The notes below the pieces were generated by a model. It made no database searches. It worked only from the letters and a program-made list of their open reading frames with translations, and had not been told where the DNA came from. DNA of 43,489 nt from assembly GCF_900163755.1 (NCBI RefSeq), contig NZ_FUKI01000093.1, positions 1 through 43,489 on the forward strand, read 5' to 3'. The position numbers and the translations under genes are program-made. Positions within the stretch are counted from its first letter, which is position 1; the number at the start of each line of letters is the position of its first letter. Positions 27,406 through 29,676 of this stretch are shown here, in pieces. The DNA comes from Crenothrix polyspora. GTDB lineage: Bacteria; Pseudomonadota; Gammaproteobacteria; Methylococcales; Methylomonadaceae.

Positions 27406-27693
27406 ATGAATTGGTCGGTTTATATTATTTTGTGCAGTGATGATTCTTTGTATACTGGCATTACTACGGATATTGTTCGTCGCTACACACAGCATACTAC
27501 ACAGCGTGGTGCTAAGTATTTTCGAGGTAGATTACCCAAACAACTGGTTTATATTGAAACGTGTCATAGTCGTAGCGCTGCCAGTCAGCGTGAGTGTGCT
27601 ATTAAAAAGCTCAGTCGGCTGCAAAAATTGCAGCTGATTGCATCACGAAAGCTTACAGTAGTGTCCGCGTTTAAGGTTGAACAGGTTTTGTAG
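27406..27693 (+). CDS. GIY-YIG domain protein (YhbQ-like)
   Basis: A 95-residue protein consisting of a single GIY-YIG nuclease fold of the UPF0213 / YhbQ type. The signature reads VYIILCSDDSLYTGITTDIV (VYI...YTG), followed by RRYTQHTTQRGAKYFRGRLP and the conserved arginine and glutamate (SQRECAIKKLSR). Members are small DNA-acting nucleases or DNA-damage proteins of uncertain role. The ATG at 27406 is preferred to a GTG at 27370 that would add 12 residues unlike the family. The divergent PepSY-like gene lies 134 bases upstream. Confidence 0.88.
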   Translation: MNWSVYIILCSDDSLYTGITTDIVRRYTQHTTQRGAKYFRGRLPKQLVYIETCHSRSAASQRECAIKKLSRLQKLQLIASRKLTVVSAFKVEQVL

Positions 27694-27793
27694 GCTGGAG
27701 TACATTGCCATTAAGTGGATAGCCAAAACTTGAAAATAATAGATAATAGCCAGCTGGCGCATGTATTATTTATATTGAGGGCAGGTTAGGGAC

Positions 27794-28537
27794 ATGAAAA
27801 GAAAAATGTTGCAGATTTACTCTATTTTTGTATTGGTCTGTGCTATGTTGTTGAATAGTGAGGCAATGGCTGAAAATACTAGTACACCAAATTGGAAGTC
27901 AACAGGATTTTAATTTAGCTTTATGCTGTACACAATCAGCATTTCATTCATGATTTGAAGATTTTTATTATCCTGTTTTTATACGATTTGATGTACTAGT
28001 GATTATCAGCCGGCAATCGCCATATTTGCAGGAGGTTGCTTTTGGTGTATGGAGCCGCCTTTTGATGCTGTACCTGGCGTTATTAATACAGTGTCGGGTT
28101 ACACCGGTGGGCGTACCGAAAATCCCTTGTATAAAGACGTTTCTAACGGTAAAACAGGCCATTTAGAAGCGCTGCAAGTAACCTATGATGCCAGTAAAGT
28201 CAGTTACGAAAAGCTTTTGGATGTGTTTTGGCATAACATAGACCCGCTTAATGATAATGGGCAATTTTGTGACCAAGGTGAGCAATACAAGAGTGTTATT
28301 TTTTATCAAGATGAGGCACAAAAACAACTTGCTGAGCAGTCAAAGCGTTCGATAGCTAATTATTTTGGAAAATTATTTGAACAACAGGTAGCGACATCAA
28401 TTCGGCCTGCGCAAAAGTTTTTCCCTGCCGAGCAATATCATCAAGACTATTATTTGAATAACCCTAAAACCTATCACTTTTATCGATTTACCTGTGGGCG
28501 TGATCGTCGCCTTAAGCAATTGTGGGATAAAGATTAG
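27794..28537 (+). pseudogene. msrA: msrA, peptide methionine sulfoxide reductase, interrupted by a 117-base insertion
   Basis: MsrA reduces methionine-S-sulfoxide in proteins. The segment 28001-28537 encodes a nearly complete MsrA domain: AIFAGGCFWCMEPPFDAVPG with the catalytic Cys of GCFWC, SGYTGG and a QYKSVIFY stretch. Yet there is no ATG, GTG or TTG in frame between the stop at 27989-27991 and the Met at 28049, which lies past the catalytic cysteine. A 39-codon frame at 27794-27913, with AGGG before its ATG, encodes a signal peptide (MKRKMLQIYSIFVLVCAMLL, then NSEAMA) in the same phase. Deleting 117 bases between the two ACTAGT sites (27878-27883 and 27995-28000) joins them into one frame of 208 residues, an exported MsrA. 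The insert carries three in-frame stops, so the present allele should not make active enzyme unless it uses a non-standard start or readthrough. Confidence 0.85.
27878..28000. repeat. MITE-like insertion inside msrA, flanked by ACTAGT
   Basis: The element has terminal inverted repeats: ACTAGTACACCAAATTGG at the left, and on the other strand from the right end ACTAGTACATCAAATCG; both continue to an ACAGGAT block about 30 bases in. ACTAGT occurs at both edges and once in the restored reading frame, consistent with a 6-base target duplication, or with a shorter TA or CTAG target inside it. The 117-base net insertion keeps the reading phase but brings stops at 27911, 27953 and 27989. It shares the outer ACTAGTAC with the family 4 elements but not the rest. 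Confidence 0.8.
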
Positions 28538-28556
28538 GGTTGCCGACTTACAGCTT

Positions 28557-28677
28557 GGACAAAATGTAGGTTGGGTTGAATGTTTTTTCAACCCAATATG
28601 ATTAGGTGGCTGTACATATTGGACTGCCAAACAGTTGGTAGTCTAATCTACTTGAGCGCTATTGTTTTTTGTGTTGT
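28557..28677. repeat. MITE-like palindromic repeat, family 1 copy B
   Basis: A diverged copy of 46-168: it begins GGACAAAATGTAGGTTGGGT and retains CTGCCAAACAG, a degraded CTAATCTACTTGA and the TATTGTTTTTT tail. The right terminus is decayed compared with copy A. It occupies most of the gap between msrA and the cmoB 3' end. Confidence 0.7.
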
Positions 28678-28719
28678 CTTAAATGAATAGTTGTTTCACG
28701 TAGTATGGCACAGCGTATT

Positions 28720-29676
28720 TTATACCGCTGTTGCAATAAAAATAGCCCGCTTAGGCGCAGGCAAACCTTCGCACGTCAGTTGTAAATTGTTCGGATCAAG
28801 AAAATCTTGCAGCGAATGAAAACGCATCCACTCGGTACTGCGCTGTTCTTCAACCGTGGTTGATGTGACATCCACCAAGCGGATATTTTTAAAGCCGCAG
28901 CGTTTTAGCCAGCTTTCCAGTGTTGCGCAACTGGGCAAAAACCACACGTTACGCATTTTGGCATAGCGGTCTTCTGGTAATAATACCTCGCCCAGTTTGC
29001 CGTCTATTACCAAGGTTTCCAGTACCAGTTCGCCACCGGATTGCAAGGTGTCTTTCAATTCCAATAAGTGATCAATAGGTGAGCGCCGATGGTACAGCAC
29101 ACCCATGGAAAATACCGTATCAAAGGCTTTTAAACCCGCAGGAATATGTTCTATACCCAGTGGTAAAACATGAACAGGGGCATCCCCATACAATTTTTTA
29201 ATCGCTAAAAATTGCATTACGTTCAGCAGCATTGGATCAACACCAATAACCGCTTTTGCCCCAGCACCCAACATACGCCAGCAGTGATACCCATTGCCGC
29301 AGCCTATATCCAACACCGTGCGCTGGCTGAGCGGTGTAATATGATCTTTAACCCGCAACCATTTCCAATCCGAGCGCCATTCGGTATCAATGTGAATATC
29401 GTATACCGTGTACGGGCCTTTGCGCCATGGGTGTAAGTTGCTAAGATTTTTGTGCAGTTGTAAGTGTTGTAGCGTACTTAATTCGGCTGCTGTGCCTATA
29501 CAGATTGCAGCACTATCCAGTTGTGTGTGTGTGCTGACAAGCGTAGGTAATGCGGCCATGCAATTGAACCAAGTGGCCAAATCGCCGTGTTTGCTGTTAT
29601 CAAATGCCTGTTCGAGTTGTTCTGGTAGCACCGCCAGCCAAGCGTCTGCTTTTATCTTCGACAGTGTGTCGTACAC
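28720..29676 (-). CDS. cmoB: CmoB, tRNA U34 carboxymethyltransferase
   Basis: Transfers a carboxymethyl group from carboxy-SAM to 5-hydroxyuridine at tRNA position 34, giving cmo5U and wider wobble reading. The 318 residues resemble the E. coli protein (323): NLHPWRKGPYTVYDIHIDTE, then WRSDWKW, the SAM-fold motif VLDIGCGNGYHCWRMLGAGA, DTVFSMGVLYHRRSPIDHL and the C-terminal FLDPNNLQLT followed by EGLPAPKRAIFIA. The start is a GTG; compared with E. coli the N-terminus may be several residues short, and no upstream ATG is in frame. The partner cmoA, which makes carboxy-SAM, is not in the window. Confidence 0.95.
   Translation of the reverse strand: MYDTLSKIKADAWLAVLPEQLEQAFDNSKHGDLATWFNCMAALPTLVSTHTQLDSAAICIGTAAELSTLQHLQLHKNLSNLHPWRKGPYTVYDIHIDTEWRSDWKWLRVKDHITPLSQRTVLDIGCGNGYHCWRMLGAGAKAVIGVDPMLLNVMQFLAIKKLYGDAPVHVLPLGIEHIPAGLKAFDTVFSMGVLYHRRSPIDHLLELKDTLQSGGELVLETLVIDGKLGEVLLPEDRYAKMRNVWFLPSCATLESWLKRCGFKNIRLVDVTSTTVEEQRSTEWMRFHSLQDFLDPNNLQLTCEGLPAPKRAIFIATAV

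Follow-up and report, generated by a model that had tools for sequence, protein, structure and literature searches.

MITEs linked to IS630 are already known, as the accessible portion of the RUP report attests. In that portion, the RUP of Streptococcus pneumoniae is a 107-bp element linked to IS630-Spn1 and proposed to be moved in trans (PMC2229807). The element described here is like it in having stops in all six frames, IS630-like ends and TA in its target, and RUP also lands in IS genes (PMC2229807). The two differ in placement: the accessible text has RUP between genes 108 times, at TA (PMC2229807), whereas the present element, in 19 copies, lies inside frames six times, and at CTAG. The Correia elements (NEMIS) of Neisseria, as far as the same portion of that source describes them, are likewise small, with TA termini, inverted repeats and a target duplication; their sequence and host are different, and the present MITE has one or more stops in each of its six frames. 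A 107-bp type of Correia is reported there as fused in frame, and a 155-bp type as carrying an IHF motif (PMC2229807).

IS630 and ISY100 are autonomous, whereas the MITE is free of genes, and one MITE copy suggests a duplication of 4 bp rather than of TA. The likeness lies in the target: IS630 reportedly prefers the TA in CTAG, to go by the title of a 1991 paper by Tenzen and Ohtsubo. ISY100 duplicates TA, and so by earlier work does IS630, in the accessible part of the ISY100 report (PMC2170065). In its accessible portions, the literature searched on IS630, MITEs, CTAG targets and methanotrophs holds no description of the present MITE, most subscription journals lying outside that search; for MITE insertion together with methionine sulfoxide reductase, the match in the accessible text concerns an integron.

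In the window (the whole stretch of 43,489 nucleotides of Crenothrix polyspora DNA analysed here), msrA occupies positions 27794-28537 (+) and is split by a 113-bp MITE core, 27883-27995, lying between two CTAGs. Its first frame runs from an ATG at 27794 to a TAA at 27911-27913; the frame of the MsrA domain is open from behind a TGA (27989-27991) to 28537, in the same phase. The first-pass annotation had described a signal-peptide frame and a start-less MsrA domain sharing one phase, and frame reading bears this out. The parts are these:

27794..27882, + strand: 5' part of msrA, from the signal-peptide-like start (judged by eye) through the left CTAG; the N-termini of orthologues align with it
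27879..27882, no strand: left CTAG target copy (CTAG at both edges of 18/19 copies, CTAC at both edges of 1/19)
27879..27913, no strand: left terminal inverted repeat including CTAG; it agrees at 27/35 bases with the right end of the IS630 remnant in this genome
27883..27995, no strand: 113-bp MITE core (TACACCAA...TTGATGTA); eight further copies in the genome have an identical core
27911..27913, 27956-27958 and 27989-27991, + strand: the three in-frame stops brought by the element (frame reading)
27965..27999, no strand: right terminal inverted repeat including CTAG; its outer 16 bases are those of the resident IS630 right end, with 25/35 matching overall
27996..27999, no strand: right CTAG target copy, with the same edge counts as the left
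28000..28537, + strand: 3' part of msrA, the complete PMSR catalytic domain including GCFWC (PF01625, TIGR00401)
28049..28537, + strand: downstream ATG-started frame of 162 aa that begins just past GCFWC, without the nucleophilic Cys

The MsrA domain of the split gene is undamaged: PF01625 matches at 5.3e-62, TIGR00401 scores over its cut-off, and GCFWC, the Cys in which is the nucleophile of MsrA, is present. Reading of the frame between the last in-frame stop and the catalytic Cys finds no ATG, GTG or TTG, and the protein from ATG 28049 lacks the nucleophile because its start lies just after GCFWC. The inverted repeats of the element (27878-27913 and 27965-28000) form 36-nt arms that are 75% complementary. 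Repeats of about 30 bases with ACTAGT edges had been noted beforehand: the arms and the ACTAGT at both edges stand, but the copies have no more than CTAG in common; of the A and the T around it, one on each side is the element's own TA end and the other belongs to the target. The unit is one of 117 bases (113 + 4), and CTAG, 113 bp and CTAG together span 27879-27999.

Taking out one 117-base unit in silico and keeping a single CTAG yields, as had been claimed, a continuous MsrA, here of 209 aa, its exported character being read by eye from a signal-peptide-like start. In a joint alignment of MsrA proteins (nine rows) the joined protein is ungapped across the joint against the G019 gene (L063), those of Methyloglobulus (L101, L102) and that of Methylococcaceae (L100), and the more distant pair L103/L064 shows no gap at this place either. 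A gap of two residues lies further up in L104, and the sister MsrA of the same genome, on contig C150, is one residue shorter beside the joint. The nearest named orthologues belong to Methyloglobulus and Methylococcaceae (among the best 80 of 563), and G009, of the same family as the host, shares its msrA protein region with a Methylococcales MAG from Lake Pavin (L064 and L103); the host is thus very probably a gammaproteobacterium that oxidizes methane. An insert-free msrA at this very locus was not found in G001 or G002: an MsrA search at E 1e-40 gave no match in the former and only one, of MsrAB length, in the latter, and the two contigs run on for only about 0.5 and 1 kb beyond the gene neighbouring the msrA locus. 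The empty site for msrA thus rests on the sister gene and the orthologues. No functioning gene carrying the same 117-base insert was seen in the genomes and collections searched.

The host genome (G000; 3.92 Mb in 180 contigs) contains 19 copies of the MITE by blastn, 18 besides that of the window (E 6e-61 to 7e-40), so that the element in msrA is no chance arrangement of bases. Nine of the cores, the window's among them, are identical, and the copy on contig C25 is a core of this type with 11 bases deleted. The other nine copies make up a second subfamily, about 91% identical to the first type: six have identical cores, two share one further change, and one (L017b) has the core of the six within CTAC edges, the only departure from CTAG/CTAG (18/19). 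Two copies on contig C49 lie only 20 bases apart. No palindromic tetramer is rarer in the window than CTAG, with 56 occurrences against about 164 expected from base composition (roughly one third); since it nevertheless stands at nearly all copy edges, the choice of target must be strong. With at least one stop in each of its six frames the element lacks coding capacity, and what characterizes a MITE is found here: a short, gene-free sequence with inverted repeats, in dispersed copies with target duplication, and with empty sites in relatives. As a single strand it folds well in both directions (z -6.2 and -6.9), but a good RNA fold is to be expected of any long inverted repeat; Rfam, at gathering thresholds, gives no match in the window.

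For 15 of the 19 sites the flanks were joined and compared with six relatives; among the matches listed, those spanning the joint concern two sites, in a gene of GmrSD type and in a gene on contig C25, and the other 13 have none across it, the matches being mostly short repeats. The GmrSD site is ungapped in G001, with a single CTAG; in G019 it has no gap at the joint, with gaps elsewhere, and the tetramer is CAAG. The C25 site is ungapped in G001, where the tetramer at the joint is CCAC, and ungapped at the joint in G002, with gaps elsewhere. CTAG at the empty site is accordingly found in only one of four comparisons, a result that divergence would also give. When copies were removed singly in silico, a stop-to-stop frame of more than 300 nt ran across the joint at 7 of the 18 tested (the second C49 copy was removed only jointly with its neighbour). 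One of these cases, a cupin gene (C97:6637), was left out of the count, as the gene probably starts past the insertion. Six copies are counted as interrupting genes: those in msrA, the GmrSD gene, the C25 gene, a beta-helix gene, a putAbiC gene and a 717-aa frame. Homology extends across the joint in the first three only; the beta-helix, putAbiC and 717-aa cases are open frames alone, in which the best Pfam stretch lies to one side of the joint or there is no Pfam match. The GmrSD-type restriction gene is interrupted by the copy at L005 (contig C144), and the copy at L010 (C93) sits towards the 3' end of a presumed abortive-infection gene (PF16872); two of the six interrupted frames thus look defence-related.

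An exact 34-base MITE pattern has 0 matches in genome_contigs and 0 in viral_contigs, and blastn finds none among 72,556 records of plasmids and 50,697 of phages, collections from which the window's own genome may be absent. A search of 60 relatives returned a sole match, 52 bases at 81% in G045, which was rejected as a copy because no CTAG flanks it. The terminal pattern occurs 32 times in G000 and once each in four others of 237 genomes of the family; a reversed control pattern occurs once each in 12 of the 237, and the four single matches are therefore taken as chance.

What moved the element? On contig C99 of G000 lies the terminal part of an IS630-type transposase (L024, frame 656-871). 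This remnant matches DDE_3 at 1.3e-5 and NF033545 at 2.1e-16 when read through, or at 1.7e-8 for the place alone; none of these scores reaches the curated cut-offs. The remnant terminates in GATTTGATGTACTAG, which is the right end of the MITE, the outer 16 bases being identical. Contigs C10 and C34 both start with the final 62 bases of this IS, which fits a repeat present in several copies that has disrupted assembly. The C99 copy, the sole long stretch, is itself broken by two copies of another repeat, and the G000 assembly has no intact IS630 with the exact ends of the MITE, which is why we infer the source transposase rather than point to it. Related transposases (E 1e-25 or better) occur in 12 of 151 genomes, G000 included. 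In G137, another genome of the family, there are five copies of a unit of 1324 bp including both CTAGs (measured on L220 and L222), with frames of 168 and 253 aa; it starts CTAGTACA and ends GTACTAG, is CTAG-flanked in all five, and so has the ends CTAGTAC ... GTACTAG. In G070 the ends are CTAGTATA and GTACTAG in two of three copies; the third closes with GTACTCG and could not be aligned at its left end. The ends vary between relatives (L211 ends TATTAG and L210 TGCTAG), and the 12 copies in G185 have ends missed by the motif used. With 16 outer bases in common with the resident remnant, and with CTAGTAC/GTACTAG ends in relatives, the MITE is most likely a non-autonomous derivative that an IS630 transposase would move.

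The length of the target duplication is a subtler matter. Copies flanked by CTAG fit a duplication of CTAG no better and no worse than one of TA by an element with G and C as its terminal bases. The CTAC copy (one of 19) fits a 4-base duplication unchanged, and one of TA only if a terminal base has changed; it poses a small, testable question. It is conceivable, though rather doubtful, that the IS630/Tc1-mariner lineage here duplicates four bases (CTAG, once CTAC) and not the TA of characterized members, and that its MITE has burst so recently, as two parallel subfamilies in only one of the 237 genomes of the family by the end pattern, that genes are being inactivated at present, open to observation.

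The reading that we hold with high confidence is insertion of a 113-bp IS630/Tc1-mariner-type MITE into a CTAG of a duplicated msrA of exported type, with duplication of the target. The non-autonomous DNA transposon would have entered at CTAG within msrA and duplicated that CTAG in doing so, an IS630 transposase presumably acting in trans; the insertion is probably recent, because nine cores are identical and the msrA frame is otherwise undamaged. A null allele would result, yielding a 39-aa signal-peptide fragment, with no canonical start from which a Cys-bearing protein could be made. As to the transposase, one may ask whether another family fond of CTAG moves the MITE, the likeness to IS630 ends being secondary. 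An IS5-type element, which makes a 4-bp duplication, would be one example. The CTAC-flanked copy argues for just such a length, and characterized IS630 elements duplicate TA, in the accessible part of the report cited above (PMC2170065); this alternative is nonetheless unlikely, in the face of 16 terminal bases identical with those of the resident IS630 remnant, a match of 27/35 bases at the other end of the MITE, and full-length IS630 relatives whose ends are CTAGTAC and GTACTAG.

Active MsrA might also still be made, from a rare start (ATC at 28016 or ATA at 28022, both in frame before GCFWC), by read-through of stops or after precise excision in some cells, and an undamaged catalytic domain would be in keeping with continuing selection. 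We regard this as very improbable: there are three stops to read through and no ATG, GTG or TTG before the catalytic Cys, a protein from a rare start would be without its signal peptide, and a recent insertion accounts equally well for the undamaged sequence. Least credible of all, and in fact already refuted by the copies elsewhere and by the empty sites, is an immobile insert, that is, a chance inverted repeat or old lineage-specific linker flanked by pieces that are separate functional frames; the common phase of the two frames and a segment length that is a multiple of three are compatible with it, but 18 copies at other sites, three in-frame stops and orthologues without the insert are not. 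The first-pass annotation had proposed a MITE-like insertion splitting msrA and a genome search for further copies, and would have yielded to the lack of any other copy or empty site. Its proposal is upheld by the 19 copies with their CTAG edges (CTAG/CTAG in 18), by the ungapped orthologues, and by empty sites in relatives at two other copies.

What an insertion of this kind costs the cell is another question, and here the same annotation went too far in suggesting that periplasmic methionine repair is lost or reshaped: this does not follow, because further msrA genes remain. G000 has four PF01625 genes: the split one, an intact one on C150, an MsrAB fusion with a hydrophobic N-terminus on C83, and a fourth on C41. 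The C150 protein, 203 aa from a GTG start, also has a hydrophobic N-terminus and is 75-76% identical to the window copy. In a tree of 41 rows selected from the loci fetched, these two are sisters (100/93), with G019 next (99/87). C150 and G019 msrA have neighbour genes in common, and the window copy is set elsewhere, beside a gene that we take to be cmoB; tree and neighbourhood together make the window msrA look like a lineage-specific duplicate that was afterwards hit by the insertion. With three in-frame stops and no usual start codon ahead of the catalytic Cys, the insertion very likely makes it a null allele, on the reading of its frames. The broken gene looks like a redundant duplicate, and its loss is probably near-neutral, since the intact sister and two other msrA genes remain. 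As a natural case of gene inactivation by a MITE it is clean: one genome and its relatives show the target, what was duplicated, the site without the element and where the transposase probably came from. The event is of an ordinary kind, its before-and-after picture unusually clear; the wider import is modest, the gene being redundant and IS630-linked MITEs being known.

The element may affect neighbouring transcription. A scan of 27650-28750 gives nine promoter-like sites, where shuffled sequence averages 2.7; one of the nine crosses the left edge of the element on the minus strand (27902-27873). The scan also gives one terminator-like site, outside the element, against 0.7 in shuffled sequence.

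Other repeats were met along the way. The one that breaks the C99 IS630 remnant (L024:64-307 and L024:436-679) is a second MITE-like repeat, 244 bp long. Its ends comprise 17 bases (CCGACATTCCGCACCCC), and six bases appear to have been duplicated at its insertions (CTAAAG and CCCAAA); its 223-base inner part occurs at 19 places in G000, including these two. Another dispersed repeat (TACTCAGTCACTCTTTAA in L004, TACTTAGTCACTCTTTAA in L016) begins right after CTAG beside two MITE copies, in L016 following a second CTAG, and matches in G002 (L186, L190) begin at the same edge, which suggests that different elements share CTAG sites. In the right flank of L003 a stretch of about 50 bases, the first of which follows the C of CTAG, turns up again at several places in G001, of the same genus (contigs C464, C282, C425, C190, C172 and C43, in some cases at contig ends). 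The left flank of L007 holds, next to one MITE copy, a short dispersed repeat around TTCGACAAGCTCAG that is abundant in relatives, with many places in G003, G023 and others.
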